Source: a virus. From it: 21,546 nucleotides of DNA. Below, in pieces: positions 9,185 to 18,673 of the stretch. The DNA lies in the IMG/VR virus record IMGVR_UViG_3300027833_000245, positions 1-21,546 of that record; one strand, written 5' to 3'. The notes under the pieces are model-generated. The model ran no database searches. It was not told where the DNA came from and worked only from the letters and a program-made list of their open reading frames with translations. The translations under genes and the position numbers were made by a program. Position 1 is the stretch's first letter, and every line of letters begins with the position of its first letter.

Positions 9185-12019
9185 ATGGCATTAAGTCCTC
9201 AATTACTACAGTTCAAAAGCTCAGGCGTATATCGCTTAGAGTTCGACAAATCACAAACCGTGAACATCCCTGCTGAAACTATTAGATTAGTTGTAGGTAG
9301 ATCTAACAAAGGTCCTTACAATACTCCAGTATTAGTAGAAGATGTTGAACAGTTTAAAAATGTATTCGGTGGCGTTGATAAGTCACTAGAAAAGAAAAAT
9401 ATGTTCTTCCACAGATCAGCTATCGAAGCTTTATCTAGAGGACCAATCTTAGCGTTAAACTTAACTGCTGATGATTCTGACGATCAAGTATCGATATTAT
9501 CTCCAGCAACTAACTCTTCTTCGGAAGGTTTATCTGCTAACACTATTCAATCATCTGCAGTTGCTGGTAAGAAATTCAGCGATGTATTTGATATTGATAA
9601 GTTTTGGAATCCTTCAGACGAGAAGTTATTAACTGCTGCTGCTGAAGATACAAACCACGCAATCTCTTTTGTAAATATCAAACAAGACCCAATCACAATT
9701 ATCATTAGACAAGCTGCTGATACTAGAGGTTTTGAATTAACTGCAAGAGAATGGTACGGAGAATCTAACATTCCAGAAGGCGTTGATGCTGATGAATACG
9801 TATCAGACTACTTAGTAGATGTATTTGTATTCAAAGGAAAATTCGATTCTGCTGAATTAAACAATGATCCTAACTACGGTACTTACTTTGATGCTAATGG
9901 TTTATACAAATCAGAATTCGCTAAATTTGCTGGATTAAGAGAAGTAACTCTTTTAGCACAATATAACGGATTATCTTTAATACCTGAATTTATTGATGCT
10001 GAAGGTAATCAAATGTACATCGAAACTCTAATTAATATGGAGGCTAGAAGAACAGGTTTATTCTGTGCTGTACAAGAAGATGCTCTTCCACAAATCGATT
10101 TAATCGGTAATGGATTTGACATCTACCAAGATTACGAAGTATTATCACATAAAGTAGAACAAGAAAAAACTAGTACTATAGTAGATATTAGTGGTTTCGG
10201 TGACAATTCAGTAGATGGAGCAACTTTAACAATCTTAGGAGCTACACCAGTTGGACTTGCTACTGCAGGAATTAACGATACTAAATATTTAAAAGCTGCA
10301 GTTGGCGTAGAGTATGTTAAGATTAATACAATAGAAGCAACTGCAGGCGGTTCAATTATTACTGCATCAGGTGATATTTCTAAATCTTATGAGAAATTCG
10401 CAGCTGGAACATCAGCAACGTGGAATAACAATGCTGTTATTACAGTAGATGGAAATGGAAACTTATTATTAAGTGCTGCGCCATTTGCGTATGGAGACTT
10501 ATTAGTAGGTGGAAACGCATTCTTATTATCTGAAAACGCAGGTGAATATGTTGCAATCAATACAATTGATATAGATAACGTAACAGGAGTTGTAACTGTA
10601 TCTCCAGCAGGTAATGTTGGATTCAGTACAGGTTACACTGATGCTAACGCAGGTGAATTAGTAGTATATAAAAGAGCATTAAATACTGCATTTGATATAT
10701 GGACATTATCTCCAAACGACAGAACAGAGATGTTCCCTACACTAGCAGGTGGTTGGGACTGGACTGATAATACCGCTGGAGTATTTACTTACTCTTACAC
10801 AGGTGTTGGTGTATTAAACGCTAATATTAAAGTAGGAATGTATATCCCAGGTGATGGTGGTAAACTATCTAGAGTTAAGAAAATCGTAAAAACTTTCGAA
10901 GATGGTATAACTAAATATAGATTTGAAACTCACAGAGTAGTTTCTTCTAGACCAGCTTATGCACTTAAGAGATACGAAGATGCTTCTGGATTATATAAAA
11001 CGTTCCCATTAGAAGGAGCAACACAAACTGAAAAGAGTATTGCAGAATTACTAACAGCAATTAAGCCAGGAACTGGTTTAGGTAACGCTTTAGTAGATAA
11101 AGACAATATTACATTCAGATATGTAGTTGATACATTTGGTTCTTTAGAGAACGGATCAATCTTAAATAAGGAAGAATTATCATTCTTATGTAAAGAAAGA
11201 CAAAATGCAGCAGCAATTCTTAACGCACCAATGGTGAAAGAACTTAAAGCAGCAACTAACCCAACGTTTAAAGACTCATTTGCTCCTTATGGATTTAATG
11301 TAAGTCACGTTGCAACAGGAGGTAACTTAGATACTAATCCAACATCTCTTTACACATTACCATCGATCAACGAAGGTGCATCTTACGCATTCTACTACGG
11401 TCCTGGTCTTAATGTAATTGAGAATGGAAGAACTAAAGTAATTCCACCAGCAGCATACGTATCTAACAACTATATCGATAAATATTTAGATGCTTTACCA
11501 TGGTCAATCATCGCAGGTCCTAGAAGAGGAGTTGTAGGTGGAACTGGAGTACAGTCATTAGAATTTTCATTCGATAAAAATGATAGAGATGTTCTTGAGC
11601 CATTTGGTTACAACCCAATCGTATTCGAAAGAGGCGTAGGTTTAACTATTAAAGGTAACAAGACTGCACAACAAGGAGTTCAATCAGCACTTTCTTCAGC
11701 TCACGTAAGAGAAGTATTAATTTACATTGAAGATGGTCTTGCAGAAATTCTTAAGAATTACCTATTTGAATTCAATAGTGCTCAAACTAGATTAGAGATT
11801 AAAACTCTAGCTGATAACTTTATGGAATCAGTGAAGAAAGATGGTGGTGTATACGACTATAAGAATATCATGGACTCTTCAAACAATACGTCTGAAGTAA
11901 TAGATAACAACATGGGAATCTTAGATACGTTTGTAGAACCAGTTAAAGGTCTTGAAATCTTAGTATCGAGAGTAACAGTATTAAATACAGGTGAAATCGC
12001 AACGGGTAACTTTGCATAA
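9185..12019 (+). CDS. 18: Contractile tail sheath protein, T4 gp18-like, enlarged
   Basis: Predicted sheath subunit that surrounds the tail tube and contracts on infection. The N-terminus (LLQFKSSGVYRLEF, then RLVVGRSNKGPYNTPVLV and VEQFKNVFGG) follows the standard sheath pattern of a tail-facing strand, a GPxxxPV loop and a domain ending in FG. The C-terminal 150 residues (PIVFERGVGLTIKGNKTA, then VREVLIYIEDGLAEILKNYL, RLEIKTLADNFMESV and a beta end) match the conserved sheath core that binds the tube and neighbouring subunits. At 944 aa it is about 285 longer than T4 gp18 (659 aa). The extra sequence is mainly a Gly/Ala/Thr-rich beta stretch at about 330-560, likely an outward-facing domain. 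It is directly followed by the tube gene, as in T4 18-19. Confidence 0.93.
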   Translation: MALSPQLLQFKSSGVYRLEFDKSQTVNIPAETIRLVVGRSNKGPYNTPVLVEDVEQFKNVFGGVDKSLEKKNMFFHRSAIEALSRGPILALNLTADDSDDQVSILSPATNSSSEGLSANTIQSSAVAGKKFSDVFDIDKFWNPSDEKLLTAAAEDTNHAISFVNIKQDPITIIIRQAADTRGFELTAREWYGESNIPEGVDADEYVSDYLVDVFVFKGKFDSAELNNDPNYGTYFDANGLYKSEFAKFAGLREVTLLAQYNGLSLIPEFIDAEGNQMYIETLINMEARRTGLFCAVQEDALPQIDLIGNGFDIYQDYEVLSHKVEQEKTSTIVDISGFGDNSVDGATLTILGATPVGLATAGINDTKYLKAAVGVEYVKINTIEATAGGSIITASGDISKSYEKFAAGTSATWNNNAVITVDGNGNLLLSAAPFAYGDLLVGGNAFLLSENAGEYVAINTIDIDNVTGVVTVSPAGNVGFSTGYTDANAGELVVYKRALNTAFDIWTLSPNDRTEMFPTLAGGWDWTDNTAGVFTYSYTGVGVLNANIKVGMYIPGDGGKLSRVKKIVKTFEDGITKYRFETHRVVSSRPAYALKRYEDASGLYKTFPLEGATQTEKSIAELLTAIKPGTGLGNALVDKDNITFRYVVDTFGSLENGSILNKEELSFLCKERQNAAAILNAPMVKELKAATNPTFKDSFAPYGFNVSHVATGGNLDTNPTSLYTLPSINEGASYAFYYGPGLNVIENGRTKVIPPAAYVSNNYIDKYLDALPWSIIAGPRRGVVGGTGVQSLEFSFDKNDRDVLEPFGYNPIVFERGVGLTIKGNKTAQQGVQSALSSAHVREVLIYIEDGLAEILKNYLFEFNSAQTRLEIKTLADNFMESVKKDGGVYDYKNIMDSSNNTSEVIDNNMGILDTFVEPVKGLEILVSRVTVLNTGEIATGNFA

Positions 12020-12708: not shown

Positions 12709-12927
12709 ATGAGTGATAAACTAACAAAAAAATTACAAGTCCTTTTGACTGAGGGAGAAGTTCGTGAAGTAAACCGAATTATCTTGAATGATGCTTTGGA
12801 TAATGAGACTCGTCCCATATCTGTAAGTGGATTCATAAGAAATCTAATAAAGTCAGAATTAAGTGTAAGAACTGTAGAACAGAGATCCTACATAAAGCAA
12901 AATCTCAAAAACTTAAAAAGTAAATAA
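12709..12927 (+). CDS. Small ribbon-helix-helix-like DNA-binding protein (tentative)
   Basis: A 72-aa protein with an N-terminal beta-like stretch (KKLQVLLTEGE), a first helix (EVREVNRIILNDALDN), then PISVSGFIRNLIKSEL, which looks like the second helix of Arc/MetJ-type ribbon-helix-helix proteins, and a basic C-terminal tail. Proteins of that class bind DNA as dimers and usually act as repressors. It lies after a strong terminator and 2 bases before the gp26-like gene, so the two are likely co-transcribed. A regulator in a tail operon is unusual. It could instead be a small structural or assembly factor with a similar helix pattern. Confidence 0.6.
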   Translation: MSDKLTKKLQVLLTEGEVREVNRIILNDALDNETRPISVSGFIRNLIKSELSVRTVEQRSYIKQNLKNLKSK

Positions 12928-12929
12928 CA

Positions 12930-13934
12930 ATGAGCGAAAAGAAAAACAAAATGAGTTCCGAAGAAGCTAAAATGGCGAGAGCCTTAGAAGCTAAAGACGC
13001 TATTAACAACCCAACTCCTGATTCAAATGAAGTAGCAGCTTCAGATATGGAATCTGTTGTTGACAAAGGTGGGCTTGGTAGAGTTAATATGTCGAATTTT
13101 ACACCAGATAAAGCACAATCTTCTGATAGTGCATTAGGATGGCATGTATTAGATCAAGTAACATTACCGTCAATGGGTAAATTTTATCCAGCTGATAGTG
13201 TAATTAAAATTAGATCTGCAAGAGCTGCAGAGATTAGACATTTTTCTACTATGGATGAGAATAATTACATCGATATGGAAGAAAAGTTAAACTCAGTAGT
13301 AGAATCATGTACTCAAATGTCATCTGGTAGTAAAAGATTATCTTACAAGGATATTCTAGAAGAAGATAGAATAGTTCTATTACTTTCTATTAGAGACCTT
13401 ACTTTTCCAGAACCAGAAAACAAATTAATGTTAAATGGTAAAGCTGAAAAGTCTAAAAAGAAAGTAGACCTTGAATTATCAGTTAAAAATCTAATACCTT
13501 CTATTATCGATGAAGAAATAGAAAGATATTATGATGATAAAAAAAGAACGTATGTTATTAAAACTCGTTCTGCTGGCGAAATCGTAATGCGTCCACCGAC
13601 AATTGGTGTTATGCAAGAGGTTACTCAATACTTGAAAGATCGTAATGAGAAGGAAATAGAATTTGATAAAGCATTTATCCAAGTATTACCTTATATACAA
13701 GGTGATTGGAGAACCCTAAGTCTAACAAAGATATTTCAATTAGAAGTAGACTATAAGGCATGGGATCAAAAAAAGTTTATGATTGTATATAGACTTGCTG
13801 AAAGAATGAGAATTGGTGTTCAAGCAACACTAGAATCTACCGTAGACGGAGAGTTGGTGAAAGCCCCTCTTGAGTTCCCAGGTGGCATCAAAAGTCTTTT
13901 CATTATTTCAGATCTCGCTGGAGAATTACTTTAA
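12930..13934 (+). CDS. 26: T4 gp26-like baseplate / tail-assembly chaperone protein
   Basis: A 334-aa protein. Residues 1-65 are hydrophilic and probably disordered. The domain then starts with VTLPSMGKFYPADSVIKIRSA (79 onward), a pattern of the T4 baseplate family that includes gp26: a Leu-Pro-Ser, a Gly, Tyr-Pro, then a beta strand and an acidic helix segment with NSVVESCTQM. Later parts alternate Lys-rich loops and helices (IDEEIERYYDD, MRPPTIGVMQEVTQYL). T4 gp26 is 208 aa, so this is longer. In T4 the order is 25-26-51-27-28-29. Here the frame overlaps the next ORF by about 74 bases in the +1 frame and is followed by a tape measure. That is the position and architecture of the tail-assembly chaperone pair of other tailed phages. 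Its last codons are CTT TAA (13929-13934). Confidence 0.65.
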   Translation: MSEKKNKMSSEEAKMARALEAKDAINNPTPDSNEVAASDMESVVDKGGLGRVNMSNFTPDKAQSSDSALGWHVLDQVTLPSMGKFYPADSVIKIRSARAAEIRHFSTMDENNYIDMEEKLNSVVESCTQMSSGSKRLSYKDILEEDRIVLLLSIRDLTFPEPENKLMLNGKAEKSKKKVDLELSVKNLIPSIIDEEIERYYDDKKRTYVIKTRSAGEIVMRPPTIGVMQEVTQYLKDRNEKEIEFDKAFIQVLPYIQGDWRTLSLTKIFQLEVDYKAWDQKKFMIVYRLAERMRIGVQATLESTVDGELVKAPLEFPGGIKSLFIISDLAGELL

Positions 13935-14181
13935 GACAAAGTTCTACCTGGGTATACATCTTAGGATGCAGCCTTCAGAGATCGAAAACATGTACTACTA
14001 CGAATATTGGTATTATGTCAAGAATCTGTCGGAGTACATCAAGAATAAGAATAAGCAACAATCGGATCAACAAGAACAGGCTAACGATCAACAGAGCTCA
14101 ATGAGCTCTAAGTATAAAACGCCTTCGATGCCCAAGATCCCCTCTATGAAGACGCCATCGTTTAAGATGCCGAAAATGTAG
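13870..14181 (+). CDS. Downstream frame of chaperone pair, gp51-like position
   Basis: This frame, open from 13861 to TAG 14179-14181, lacks any ATG in its first 105 bases. The earliest starts are TTG 13870 and GTG 13882, both inside the upstream gene; the first ATG is 13966. Yet the sequence before that ATG looks coding: FSLFQISLENYF, then a helix and a Pro-Ser-Glu-Ile-Glu turn followed by YYYEYWYYVKNL. The pattern of one helix, then Pro-Ser-x-Ile/Val, then an aromatic-rich helix is common in the second half of tail-assembly chaperones. The C-terminus is Gln-rich, then basic with repeated Pro-Ser-Met-Lys units. It is probably made as a fusion to the 12930 gene by +1 frameshift, or by internal start. 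In T4 the gene after 26 is 51 (hub assembly). I cannot show homology to gp51. Confidence 0.6.
   Translation: MSSQVASKVFSLFQISLENYFKTKFYLGIHLRMQPSEIENMYYYEYWYYVKNLSEYIKNKNKQQSDQQEQANDQQSSMSSKYKTPSMPKIPSMKTPSFKMPKM
13921..13935 (+). other. Candidate +1 programmed frameshift site at CTT_TAA_G
   Basis: The gp26-like frame ends CTT TAA. A +1 slip of the CTT-decoding tRNA onto TTT would continue as AAG ACA AAG into the downstream frame, which is open from 13861 to 14181. The motif has the shape of the CUU-stop site of the release-factor-2 gene prfB. A purine-rich GGAGA lies 6 bases upstream of CTT (13919-13923), a possible stimulator. The product would be 334 + 82 = 416 aa. A second candidate within the overlap is CTT TTC at 13896-13901. 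Confidence 0.45.
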
Positions 14182-14256: not shown

Positions 14257-17200
14257 ATGCCAAAGAAGAATCCATTAGCTACTGCATTCGATAAGTTTAG
14301 CTCTAAAGATGGAGTATTAGGCGAAATTAGTGCAAACACACTTCTTGTCGCAGAAACATTTGATGAAGGTGGAGAGATATTTGATAGAATAGACCGAATG
14401 GTCGAAGCTATAGAAACTATCGTTGAATCTACTCAATCTGGTAGTGGCGGGCTTCAAGAGGCTATTGTATTAAATTTAGTAGCACCAACACTTAAACCTA
14501 TTGGTTTAGGTATGGGCTTTATTATTGATGCGTTAAATCAGGCCGAGAGTGCTGAAGATTTAACGTCAAAATTCGGCGCACTTAATGCTGGATTAGTAGT
14601 ATTAGGAGATATAGGTAAATCTATATTAATGTTTGCAGCAACGATGGTAATAGGAATACCAATCTTAATGATTGCTGCAGTTACTGCCCCAGTCTGGGTT
14701 GGTGGTATTTATGTTATTATACAGGGTATTAAAATGGCAACTCAAGGCCTAGAAGAAGGCGAGTTGGATAAATTAATAATACTCCACGCAATCGGGGCAT
14801 CAATTGTGAAATTTGGATTATTGATGGCAGCAATGGTATTAATAGCACCAGTTGCACTTGTAGGTATGTTATTTACAGTACCTTTACTTCTAGGTGTTGT
14901 TGCAATAGCAAAGTATATAGGTGAGCACTTTACTGAAGAAGCTCTAGATAAATTTATGACTTTTAATAAAGCAATGGTCATATTAGGATTAGGTATCTTA
15001 TCGATTGGTTTATCATTAGCTTTAGTGGCAGTACTTGCAAAGCATATTATTATGGGACTTTTCGTCTTCGGTGTGGTTGCACTTGGATTAGGTGCTATAT
15101 TTATGTTATGGGAGAAGTTATTTCAAATAGATGAAACGAAAGCAGAGGCTTATGCAAAATCATTAGCTTTCTTAGGAATTGGTATTATTACTATTGGTTT
15201 AGGCTTGATGTTAATGAACGCATTTGCTGGAGCAATCATAAAAGGTTTAATGGTAGCAGCATTAGTATTAATAGTAATAGGTGGTGTATTCTTCCTATTC
15301 CAGAAAATGGGAATTAATAAAACTATTAAGAAAACAGCAAGCGGCTTAATCTTAGCCGCTGGTGCAATTTTAGCACTATCTGTCGCATTAGCACTTTCTA
15401 ATTTAATTATGCCAGGATTTTTAGATACAATGGGTATTTTAATGATTATTGGAGCTGTGGCATTAACCATGTTCTTTATAGGAAAGCAAATAGGTAATAT
15501 CGTAAAAGGTGCGCTTGCATTAATTGTAATGGGAATAGGTTTGTTTGCATTATCAGTTGGTATTGGATTTATGAGATTAGCAATTCCTAGTGTTGAAGTT
15601 GGAATAGGCATGATAGCCTTAATCGGTGGAATAGGTCTTGTATTTGGAGTAATAGGTATGGCATTCGCCAACGTAGCTTTAGGTGGCGCCGCAATGATAA
15701 TTGCAGGAGTTGCATTAATAGTCTTAGGGCTTGGTGTAATGGCAATGATGCATTCATTACCTACTGTTGAAGAGGGTATTGGTATGTTATTATTAATAGG
15801 TGGTTTAGGCCTGGTATTTGGAGTTGCTGGTTTAGCGGCTGCATTTATAGCATTAGGTGCAGCATCTATGATTGTTGCTGGTGTAGCGTTAATCGTTATA
15901 GGAGCCGGCGTAGCAATCATGGCAGCAGCTACTAAAGATGTTACAATGGATCAAGTTCTTGTAATGGGAGCAATTATAGGTGGTATCGGAGTTGCAATGG
16001 CAGCTGCTGGTTTAGCATCACCTTTAATCTTATTAGGTTCTGTCGCAATGACTGCAGCAGGAATTGCAGTGTTAGCAATCTCTGTAGGTATGGCAGCTCT
16101 AGCAGCAATTGACTTTAATAAATTAGGTACTATTTCTGAAAAAGGTAATAAAGCATTTAACTGGTCTGGTGAAAAAGGATTCTTCGGTGGTAAGAAATCT
16201 AACTTTGAAACAGCAATGGATGCCATTGCAGATGGTATGTCATTAGGACCATTATCAATATTAGGTATTATGACCGGCGCGCCAGTTATGATTTTAGCAG
16301 GAGCTGCATTAACAAGTATTGCATTAGGACTTAGGGTATTTACATCAGCTATAGGAGATACTGATTTACCTAGACTAAGCGATAATGTACAAATGATCGT
16401 TTCAGGTTTATCTGAAACTTTTGCTGAAGTCGGCGCATCAATGGGAGGACCTTTTTGGTTCACTAGTGATGTATATAAAGGTATTCAGGCTACTCGAGGT
16501 ATGGGCACATCATTAACAGGTATTGCTAAAGGTGTTCAAGCTATGGCAATGCTTAGATTCCCAACAGGATTTGATAAAGAGGGTAATCCAACAGGATATG
16601 AAACTATAGATTTAGGAACCGCAGTACCAAACTTAGTTGCTAATACTAAATTAATAATCACAGGTTTAAGTTCTGCATTTGCAGAGGTTGGAGAATCTAA
16701 AGCAGCTCAAGGCAGTTCATGGTTTAGTTCTTCTTCTTATGAAAAGGGTATTGATGTTGTTCAGAAAATGGGTACACCGCTATTTAATTTAGCAAAAGGT
16801 GTACAGTCTATGGCAATGCTTAAATTTCCAACTGGATTTGATAAGGACGGTAACGCAACAGGATATAAATCAATTGGAGACGTAGATACTTTAGTTGCTA
16901 AGCTTGCTAAGAACACAAAAGCACTTATTATAGGTTTAGCTGGAGTATTTGAAGAAGTTGGAGCATCTGGTGTCGGCAGCGGCGGAGGATGGTTCTCTTC
17001 ATCTAATTTTGAAAAGGGTGCTGAAATAGCATTACAATTAGCAGATCCTTATTCTTCATTAGCAGATGCAGTTGAATCTGTCGCAACACTTACAGAAGGT
17101 ATTACAGACCCAGTATTACTTAGAGAGAAAGTTACATCTTTAGTAGAAACTATTTCAGTAATAGGTGGTTTCTGGGTACAATCATTTTTTGATGGTGTTA

Positions 17201-18300
17201 ATGCTGCACGTAATGTTAAAGAACCTTATAGCATTTTAGCCTCAGCAGTTACTGATGTTACTACAATTACAAGTGCAATTTCAGACGGAGCTGAAGTTAG
17301 AGAAAAAGTATCAGCTATGATCGAGTCTATTGTTGGAACCAATGATGATGGCGTAGATATGGGCGCTAAGACCTCATTAATTCATGCAATTGGATGGACT
17401 TATGGAAAATTAGGAGTTGCAATACCTTTAATTGTTAATGCAATTACTCAATTTACTGTTGAAAAAGGTAAAGCTTTCGCATCAATTTTTGGTGGTGAGA
17501 CTCCAGCTGAAATGTATGAAGCAAAAAACAAAATGCTTAAAACATTAGCAACGTCTTATATGAGAATGGCGGTTGCTATTCCAATGATTGTAGCATCAGT
17601 TAATAGTTTAGCTGCAGAACCAATGAATGAGTTTACTAAACTCTATGGAGGTGTAACTAACGATATTGAAGTTTTAGCAGCTAAAAGTACTTTATTTGAA
17701 GCAGTCGGTTCATCTTATCAAAAAATAGGTGCTGCAGCCCCTCAAATTGCTAGTGCTATAAACGGTACTAGTCTAGAACAGATGCAAGGATGGACTGGCA
17801 TGTTTGTCGGTGATGTTGGATTCTTAAGACCTATTGCAGGTTACAACGCACAAACAGAACTTTGGAGTACAATCGGAAACTCTCTTACAATGGGAGCCAC
17901 TGCATTCCCTCAGATCTCTGCCGGGATAAATGCAGTAGACTATAATAAATTAGTAGAGTCTAGAAGAATGTTTGAAGCATTAGGAGTTCTTGCTGAAGGT
18001 GGTGAACCTTCAGATATACTTGCAGCAATGGGAGAGTCTTTAGAAGTTGCAATGCAACGTTTAGCAGATATTCTAATGGAATTCCAAACATCAGTTGGAG
18101 AGTCTCAAGATGCTCAAGGAGGTTTCTTATCAGAATTAGCTAGCCTACCAGGTAAATTAGTTGGTGGTGTTGCAGACGGCATACGCGGAGATAGTGGCGG
18201 TGGTAATAATGCAGAAGTAGTAAGAGCTGTTAAGCAACTACAAAACGCACTTACTAAAACCGGAATTAAAATTAGTAATAACGGTCGTCTTTCTAATTAA
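14257..18300 (+). CDS. Tape-measure-like tail protein, large and repeat-built
   Basis: The longest gene (1347 aa), directly after the chaperone pair, is the expected place for the tail tape measure, which sets tail length and is ejected on infection (T4 gp29: 590 aa). Residues 1-110 are mixed helices. Residues about 115-620 are a nearly continuous series of hydrophobic Gly/Ala/Ile/Leu/Met helices built from repeats of about 58-60 residues (for example starting GIGMIAL at 449 and GIGMLLL at 507). Residues about 705-1010 contain three full and one partial copy of a second repeat, 86-90 residues. The C-terminus is Ser/Gly-rich, then a short amphipathic helix (AEVVRAVKQLQNAL). At about 0.15 nm per residue of a helical tape measure the tail would be near 200 nm. 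Function is from size, position and hydrophobicity, not sequence identity to gp29. Confidence 0.75.
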   Translation: MPKKNPLATAFDKFSSKDGVLGEISANTLLVAETFDEGGEIFDRIDRMVEAIETIVESTQSGSGGLQEAIVLNLVAPTLKPIGLGMGFIIDALNQAESAEDLTSKFGALNAGLVVLGDIGKSILMFAATMVIGIPILMIAAVTAPVWVGGIYVIIQGIKMATQGLEEGELDKLIILHAIGASIVKFGLLMAAMVLIAPVALVGMLFTVPLLLGVVAIAKYIGEHFTEEALDKFMTFNKAMVILGLGILSIGLSLALVAVLAKHIIMGLFVFGVVALGLGAIFMLWEKLFQIDETKAEAYAKSLAFLGIGIITIGLGLMLMNAFAGAIIKGLMVAALVLIVIGGVFFLFQKMGINKTIKKTASGLILAAGAILALSVALALSNLIMPGFLDTMGILMIIGAVALTMFFIGKQIGNIVKGALALIVMGIGLFALSVGIGFMRLAIPSVEVGIGMIALIGGIGLVFGVIGMAFANVALGGAAMIIAGVALIVLGLGVMAMMHSLPTVEEGIGMLLLIGGLGLVFGVAGLAAAFIALGAASMIVAGVALIVIGAGVAIMAAATKDVTMDQVLVMGAIIGGIGVAMAAAGLASPLILLGSVAMTAAGIAVLAISVGMAALAAIDFNKLGTISEKGNKAFNWSGEKGFFGGKKSNFETAMDAIADGMSLGPLSILGIMTGAPVMILAGAALTSIALGLRVFTSAIGDTDLPRLSDNVQMIVSGLSETFAEVGASMGGPFWFTSDVYKGIQATRGMGTSLTGIAKGVQAMAMLRFPTGFDKEGNPTGYETIDLGTAVPNLVANTKLIITGLSSAFAEVGESKAAQGSSWFSSSSYEKGIDVVQKMGTPLFNLAKGVQSMAMLKFPTGFDKDGNATGYKSIGDVDTLVAKLAKNTKALIIGLAGVFEEVGASGVGSGGGWFSSSNFEKGAEIALQLADPYSSLADAVESVATLTEGITDPVLLREKVTSLVETISVIGGFWVQSFFDGVNAARNVKEPYSILASAVTDVTTITSAISDGAEVREKVSAMIESIVGTNDDGVDMGAKTSLIHAIGWTYGKLGVAIPLIVNAITQFTVEKGKAFASIFGGETPAEMYEAKNKMLKTLATSYMRMAVAIPMIVASVNSLAAEPMNEFTKLYGGVTNDIEVLAAKSTLFEAVGSSYQKIGAAAPQIASAINGTSLEQMQGWTGMFVGDVGFLRPIAGYNAQTELWSTIGNSLTMGATAFPQISAGINAVDYNKLVESRRMFEALGVLAEGGEPSDILAAMGESLEVAMQRLADILMEFQTSVGESQDAQGGFLSELASLPGKLVGGVADGIRGDSGGGNNAEVVRAVKQLQNALTKTGIKISNNGRLSN
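15400..16125 (+). repeat. Degenerate hydrophobic protein repeats of about 58-62 residues
   Basis: Within the tape measure, units begin near residues 388, 449, 507 and 568 with (G)IGM-x-L-IGG-x-GLVFG-like stretches, a Gly/Ala helix, then MIIAGVALIVLGLGV-like stretches. The middle two (449-506 and 507-567) are the most alike. They are inside a single open frame and so are gene-internal duplications. Confidence 0.7.
16369..17275 (+). repeat. Three and a half tandem repeats of 86-90 residues in the tape measure
   Basis: Copies begin near residues 705, 791 and 881. Each has an N-x(2-6)-I-GL-x-x-x-F-x-EVG-x-S stretch, then WF-(S/T)S, a Lys-Gly-x-x pattern, and, in copies 1 and 2, AMAMLRFPTGFDKEGNPTGY or its near twin AMAMLKFPTGFDKDGNATGY. 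A fourth, shortened copy with NAARNVKEPYSILASAV follows to about residue 1006. Confidence 0.85.
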
Positions 18301-18343: not shown

Positions 18344-18673
18344 ATGATAACAAGTACTACATCACATTACAAGAGTTCAACTATTAATTCAGCAACATAC
18401 GACGTTACTGATCAAACGCTAACAGTAGTTTTTAAATGGGCAACTTATGTCTATGAAGCAGTTGACGTAGAAACTTGGAACAAATTTAATTTAGCAGATT
18501 CTCAAGGCAAAGCACTTAATGAACATATTAAAGGTAGTTTTGAATACGCTAAATACAAGGATCAAATTCCTACTGGCATTAAATTTGAACAATCTGGAAT
18601 GGTTAAAAACATTACAGCACCCGGTAGTCTATTAAATGAGTTACCTCCTTCTGATTATCAAATGGGAAATTAA
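18344..18673 (+). CDS. KTSC-domain protein
   Basis: A 109-aa protein whose residues about 8-72 follow the KTSC domain pattern: Ser-x-x-Ile-x-x-Ala-x-Tyr-Asp, then TLTVVFKWATYVYEAVD, then a helix with (W/Y)-x-x-F-x-x-ADSQGKALNEHIKG-x-F-x-Y. KTSC domains were named from the C-terminus of some lysyl-tRNA synthetases and occur as free small proteins in bacteria and phages; the biochemical role is not settled. The C-terminal 35 residues look flexible (Pro/Leu). It starts 44 bases after the tape-measure stop, and its stop is one base from the next small ORF, so it probably belongs with the small-protein cluster that follows. Confidence 0.75.
   Translation: MITSTTSHYKSSTINSATYDVTDQTLTVVFKWATYVYEAVDVETWNKFNLADSQGKALNEHIKGSFEYAKYKDQIPTGIKFEQSGMVKNITAPGSLLNELPPSDYQMGN

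Follow-up and report, generated by a model that had tools for sequence, protein, structure and literature searches.

The window analyzed here, a 21.5-kb virus record, derives from a marine T4-like large (jumbo) phage and carries genes for a terminase of the T4 type (PF03237) and for the tail sheath (9185-12019, plus strand; PF17482, E = 1.5e-7) 5' of a pair of overlapping open reading frames. The first of these, ORF1 (12930-13934, plus strand; 334 aa), is assigned from phrog matches and an AF2 model as a gp26-like short tail-assembly chaperone, the analogue of TAC-N or gpG, and it ends with CTT TAA at 13929-13934. The second, ORF2, is open from 13861 to 14181 on the same strand, in the +1 frame relative to ORF1, and its match to phrog_634 and a tblastn match to cyanophage gp51 suggest that it encodes a C-terminal extension analogous to the T-domain or the gp51 C-terminus. 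The only ATG, GTG or TTG codons in this frame before 13968 are TTG 13870, GTG 13882 and ATG 13966, and GGAGA lies at 13920-13924; all of these features had been listed in the initial annotation, and all are present. A probable tape measure gene follows (14257-18300, plus strand; 1347 aa), assigned from its position, size and hydrophobic repeats, with no family match. The position of the pair within a tail cluster is thus marked upstream by the PF17482 match to the sheath, with the tube and tape measure placed by position and size only. A 72-aa ORF without a convincing family match (12709-12927) separates the tail tube candidate from ORF1, and a KTSC-domain protein (PF13619, E = 2e-13) is encoded at 18344-18673, directly 3' of the probable tape measure gene.

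Several lines of evidence relate ORF1 to known tail-assembly chaperones. ORF1 matches phrog_36717, the family of PAU gp93 (E = 1.9e-25), and phrog_150, the T4-like "baseplate hub" gp26 family (E = 2.9e-4). Its AlphaFold2 model (mean pLDDT 78, below 50 for the last six residues) finds T4-like gp26/gp51 among viral models, and the best of the solved structures is the HK97 tail assembly chaperone 2ob9, with a moderate Z of 5.6 over 88 residues at an rmsd of 4.4 Å, the next entry having a Z of 2.2. Because a Foldseek search of the PDB alone with the same model gave no significant match, ranking the HK97 chaperone at E = 4.2, we take this likeness in fold as support rather than proof. ORF2 matches phrog_634, the "baseplate hub assembly catalyst" gp51 family (E = 7.9e-8), and this match begins inside the overlap, where residue 13 of the open frame lies; the tblastn match of ORF2 to cyanophage gp51 has an E value that is weak taken alone. 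Both parts, and the fused form, thus belong to the gp26/gp51 family. A nucleotide search in phages gave no match, no relative was found in bacterial and archaeal genome contigs, and in a profile search with all ORF1s the sequences were too diverged.

The relationship between gp26 and gp51 in T4 itself gives this assignment its context. T4 gp51 matches phrog_150 over its whole length (E = 2.6e-84) and phrog_634 at its C-terminus (E = 1.2e-23), whereas of these two families T4 gp26 matches only phrog_150. An HMM built solely from predicted non-T4 fusions also finds both T4 gp26 (E = 1e-24) and gp51 (E = 4e-11), with the gp51 alignment spanning the junction and gp26 matching the short part. These profile and HMM matches indicate that gp26 and gp51 are paralogous short and long forms, that gp51 is a natural fusion of the two parts, and that T4 keeps one short and one fused copy. 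The initial annotation had noted that T4 genes 26 and 51 are treated as separate, which is true of T4, although the two proteins are related as short and long forms. Since hhalign of the window's fusion against the single T4 gp51 sequence gave no signal, the link from the window to T4 gp51 runs through the T4-like fusions. The TAC-N/TAC-NC short/long pair of T4-like phages has already been published (Vladimirov, Gautam and Davidson 2022, Virology 566:9, as described in PMC10885494), and PMC12846349 cites that study on poly-T signals for -1 shifts in the TAC-N genes of T4-like phages; T4 is listed as the exception to G-T frameshifting in a review (PMC5009743).

To place the overlap in an evolutionary frame, we compared 80 IMG/VR relatives, 12 distant phage records, a second family of 80 loci (family 2) and the L081/L101 clade. 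Cultured relatives include Tenacibaculum phages pT24 and PTm1, Chryseobacterium phage MA9V and Sphingomonas phage PAU. Although ORF1 identity falls to about 21-29% across diverged lineages, all of the roughly 12 such lineages have an ORF2 that overlaps ORF1 and is read in the +1 frame, wherever the sequence reaches far enough. Lak phages read through TAG, and with read-through their loci also fit a +1-frame overlap. Within the window's family, variable +1 codons between the ORF1 stop and ATG 13966 change synonymously (ACA/ACT, TAC/TAT, GGT/GGC, CAT/CAC, CTT/CTC, AGG/AGA/CGA), and an Ile codon in this stretch encodes Ile in 33 of 35 sequences, with two exceptions. From nt +3 to +59 after the stop, an interval that takes in codons after ATG 13966, changes silent only in the +1 frame occur at 18 of 31 possible places and changes silent only in the 0 frame at none of 36. 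In L081 and L101, ATG, GTG and TTG are all absent from the +1 frame between the point where it opens and nt +28, so that, at least there, translation must enter this frame from ORF1; among cyanophages, the -1 frame of 83 of 85 loci lacks these codons up to nt +10. ORF2 is thus an overlapping frame under protein selection that does not depend on a start codon of its own, being start-free, though only in some relatives, with TTG and GTG present in the window. In the window's family the -1 frame is also open, but how far it extends downstream is not conserved, and we rejected a product from it.

Taken together, a programmed frameshift that joins ORF1 and ORF2 is well supported by the presence and extent of +1-frame coding, the retained frame and overlap, the two start-free relatives, the homology to a natural fusion and the nucleotide-level element described below. 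The initial annotation had proposed a frameshift into the +1 frame that, if conserved, would make the pair a gpG/gpGT-like system, and both parts of this proposal are supported, the frameshift through the constancy of frame and overlap in about 12 lineages and the system as a TAC-N/TAC-NC pair in which ORF1 is kin to chaperones and ORF2 is under protein selection. It had further suggested that homologues be aligned for conservation of the overlap and of CTT_TAA and for the absence of a start in ORF2. The overlap is conserved and ORF2 is start-free in L081/L101, but CTT_TAA is not conserved beyond the close family and the L081/L101 clade, and the window does have TTG and GTG.

The second type of evidence is at the nucleotide level. 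CTT_TAA is common to the window and its IMG/VR family, and 13863-13934 is nearly invariant at synonymous sites, so the pattern at the end of ORF1 is more than chance. The choice of codons freezes at 13863 and stays frozen as far as the ORF1 stop, and at several codons beyond it up to 13952, whereas elsewhere mean codon entropy is 0.92 bit and 3% of codons are invariant. The onset of this constraint coincides with GCC_CCT_CTT (13863-13871, plus strand; site 1), which is present in all 40 distinct elements of the family. In the cyanophage control, freezing begins at the slip heptamer itself, which argues that GCC_CCT_CTT is the slip site in the window, and we lean, with modest confidence, towards a shift there. 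Site 1 is followed by a 5-nt spacer, GANTT (13872-13876, plus strand; 13874 is G, C or T in the alignment of distinct elements), and then by a conserved 76-nt stem-loop at 13877-13952.

In this stem-loop, as defined by RNAalifold and pair counts on the plus strand, the outer arms CCCAGGTGG (13877-13885) and CTACCTGGG (13944-13952) are 100% paired across the family. An inner stem joins GTCTT (13894-13898) to AAGAC (13933-13937), and an apical hairpin, TTTCAG...CTGGAGA (13906-13924), pairs 13906-13911 with 13918-13920 and 13922-13924. Nucleotide constraint ends at the outer 3' arm, which holds an invariant rare CTG codon, found in 35 of 35 sequences although CTG makes up only 6 of 508 Leu codons. 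Variation within 13877-13952 falls in ten columns, nine of them unpaired; in the tenth, G-C becomes G-U (P = 0.0014, the structure having been predicted on the same alignment). Pair counts on the family alignment gave this kind of support in one consistent change and no compensatory double changes, and single-sequence RNA folds around the overlap were not significant (z about +0.2 to -1.1). We make no claim for hairpins in family 2, where several members break pairs. The stem-loop may nonetheless aid a shift at site 1.

How tRNAs would move at site 1 admits two answers, both possible: CCT could slip -2 onto CCC, or CTT could slip +1 onto TTG. GCC_CCT_CTT is not, to our knowledge, a textbook +1 site; the re-pairing of CTT with TTG is imperfect, whereas that of CCT with CCC by a -2 movement is good, although -2 slips have, as far as we know, rarely been described. 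Diverged relatives point to the same region, though with different letters. TTT_CCC occurs at F-P codons one to four codons 3' of the homologous place in family 2, PAU, pT24 and LR756501, and TAC_CCC in LR756504; CCC accounts for about 2-5% of Pro codons in the loci of these relatives. By established decoding rules, a +1 move re-pairs well both from TTT to TTC and from CCC to CCN. In the L101 clade the F-P codons read TTT_CCT. In L083 and L105-L184 (family 2), GAG GAG GTC CAC, which contains the perfect Shine-Dalgarno-like AGGAGGT, lies about 75-90 nt before the ORF1 stop; in family 2 it shows almost no codon variation, although the usual Glu codon is GAA, and it falls about 16 nt before TTT_CCC. 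LR756501 (L089, a 735-kb phage) seemingly has an insertion in ORF2 before the SVFSVFTVSWENL motif, which would make its overlap anatomy unlike all others.

The same fusion could arise by a shift further downstream, at CTT_TTC (13896-13901, plus strand; site 2), through tRNA-Leu moving from CTT to TTT (+1) or tRNA-Phe from TTC to TTT (-2). Site 2 is homologous in position to the -1 heptamer T_TTT_TTC of T4-like cyanophages, is CTT_TTC in all 40 distinct elements of the window's family, and reads (C/A)TT_TTC in eight lineages (ATT_TTT in L082). Cross-lineage conservation is mainly in the 0 frame 5' of this codon and in the +1 frame 3' of it, and in family 2 some +1 residues 5' of it vary freely. 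Against this stand the differing letters in the L101 clade (TTA_TTC or CTA_TTC), pT24 (ATT_GTC) and Lak (ATA_TTC), those of the L101 clade in particular disfavoring site 2 as a common site. A slip here would also fall inside the stem, and it would account neither for the upstream stem arm nor for the invariance of GCCCCTCTTGA. We regard site 2 as unlikely, and a shift at the ORF1 stop itself as far less likely still. The initial annotation had placed a prfB-like +1 shift at CTT_TAA (13929-13934, plus strand; site 3), with GGAGA just upstream, which in this model would act as stimulator. CTT_TAA is indeed found in all 40 distinct elements and in the L081/L101 clade, but dual coding explains this, since TTT AAG (F K) is required in the +1 frame at the very place of the 0-frame stop and CTT_TAA is thereby forced. 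In other lineages the stop follows ATT, GAA, TCT, TTT, GAG or TTA, none of them slippery. Moreover, +1-frame homology to T4-like second ORFs begins 5' of CTT_TAA, where the peptide SLFQISLENYFKTKF is homologous to cyanophage ALFHNTLEGYYKTNF (SLFQISLENYF before the stop against ALFHNTLEGYY of cyanophage ORF2), and in hhalign against T4-like cyanophages a fusion made upstream reaches E = 1.2e-9, better than the 7.5e-6 of a fusion at CTT_TAA. GGAGA is not fixed either, 13921 being C in 3 of 40 distinct elements, so that a prfB-type combination of a conserved CUU_stop with a Shine-Dalgarno sequence 3 nt upstream was not found; the constraint at 13863-13900 would likewise go unexplained. CTT_TAA is thus probably not the shift site.

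Independent translation of ORF2, starting at TTG 13870, GTG 13882 or ATG 13966 through internal or coupled initiation, would dispense with a frameshift altogether. All three codons are invariant in the family, and an ATG lies within the overlap in some relatives, including family 2 and PAU, where it is at nt -71 after GGGAGG. The coding constraint ahead of ATG 13966, however, led us to reject it as the main ORF2 start; neither 13870 nor 13882 has a Shine-Dalgarno sequence or an A-rich leader, and 13882 lies inside the stem. A candidate start is lacking in L081 and L101, and the position and type of such starts vary by lineage while frame and overlap are constant. On these grounds we consider separate initiation quite improbable.

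The reading we prefer, and hold to be highly probable from the comparative data, is that ORF1 and ORF2 form one tail-assembly-chaperone gene expressed in a short and a long form through a +1 (or -2) shift 5' of the ORF1 stop, most likely at site 1. Most ribosomes would terminate at 13934 and yield the short chaperone, with the predicted C-terminal end SLFIISDLAGELL. A minority would change frame by +1, or by -2 into the same frame, 5' of CTT_TAA and before the stem at 13877-13952, most likely at GCC_CCT_CTT with help from the stem-loop, as tRNA-Pro moves from CCU to CCC (-2) or tRNA-Leu from CUU to UUG (+1). The product of these ribosomes would be a longer chaperone that carries the C-terminal domain from ORF2, as in lambda gpG/gpGT and the T4-like TAC-N/TAC-NC; by analogy with gpGT (PMC5009743), the extra domain presumably contacts the tail tube. 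What we infer from these alignments is that slippage occurs, at which codon, in which direction (+1 or -2) and how often, and what part the stem plays in it. The alternatives predict different tryptic peptides: APLSSQVASK (+1) or APLLSSQVASK (-2) for site 1, both with VFSLFQISLENYFK; SLSLFQISLENYFK (+1) or SLFSLFQISLENYFK (-2) for site 2; SLFIISDLAGELLK for site 3; and an N-terminal (fMet)SSQVASK for initiation at TTG.

Short and long chaperones made by frameshifting are known in phages, but the direction here (+1 or -2) is unusual. Lambda gpG/gpGT has the same arrangement, with low-level frameshifting linking a pair of ORFs that sits between the tail tube and the tape measure (PMC5009743), and it is in arrangement that we liken the two, as lambda shifts -1 and the window has no lambda-type heptamer. 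The T4-like TAC-N/TAC-NC pair shares with the window a homologous short protein and C-terminal domain, a short/long chaperone and a position 5' of the tape measure gene. T4, however, uses two genes and the other T4-likes compared here a -1 shift at T_TTT_TTY: in cyanophages T_TTT_TTC is followed by one codon and then the stop, with ORF2 in -1, in 63 of 63 distinct sequences, and T_TTT_TTY with ORF2 in -1 also occurs in Ochrobactrum phage OC, Cronobacter phage LPCS28, Stenotrophomonas phage Mendera, Aeromonas phage PX29 and Vibrio phage XZ1. The window has no canonical -1 heptamer, with CTT_TTC in place of TTT_TTC, and its clade instead shows a conserved stem-loop and ORF2 in the +1 frame, which can be reached only by a +1 or -2 shift. 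Forward shifts are described on CCC in the capsid and tail-shaft genes of Listeria phage PSA and inferred for a tail gene of HSTV-2 (PMC5009743). The window shares with these the forward direction, and its relatives a rare CCC codon in the site 1 region, whereas in the window's GCC_CCT_CTT, in contrast to PSA, CCC is not in frame. The prfB site CUU_UGA resembles the CTT and stop at the end of ORF1, but the latter is not conserved outside the close family, its Shine-Dalgarno-like element is not fixed and +1 homology begins upstream.

We hold as a tentative idea, somewhat short of probable, that direction has switched within one chaperone family, from or to -1 at T_TTT_TTY in T4-likes of Proteobacteria and cyanobacteria and +1 or -2 here, with the marine branch having its own GCC_CCT_CTT and 76-nt stem-loop and with tRNA-Pro possibly slipping by -2 from CCU to CCC. 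The short/long chaperone pair is needed for tail length control. If this idea is right, three routes (a -1 shift, a +1 or -2 shift and gene duplication in T4) have led to that pair within a single protein family, and evolutionary change in recoding direction could be studied directly. Two phages with a homologous ORF2 in -1 lack the heptamer, Vibrio phage K469 (L271; TAATG overlap, CTT_TTT) and Salmonella phage S8 (L270; ATT_TTC), and these possibly represent other ways of expressing the long form. The comparison also corrects annotation, since many records, among them PAU and several cyanophages, omit ORF2 or give it a wrong start: ACG-2014h/S-MbCM7 (L097), S-CAM4 (L099), PAU gp94 (L084) and S-RSM4 (L096) either leave the gp51 C-terminal domain unannotated or begin it at a late internal ATG.
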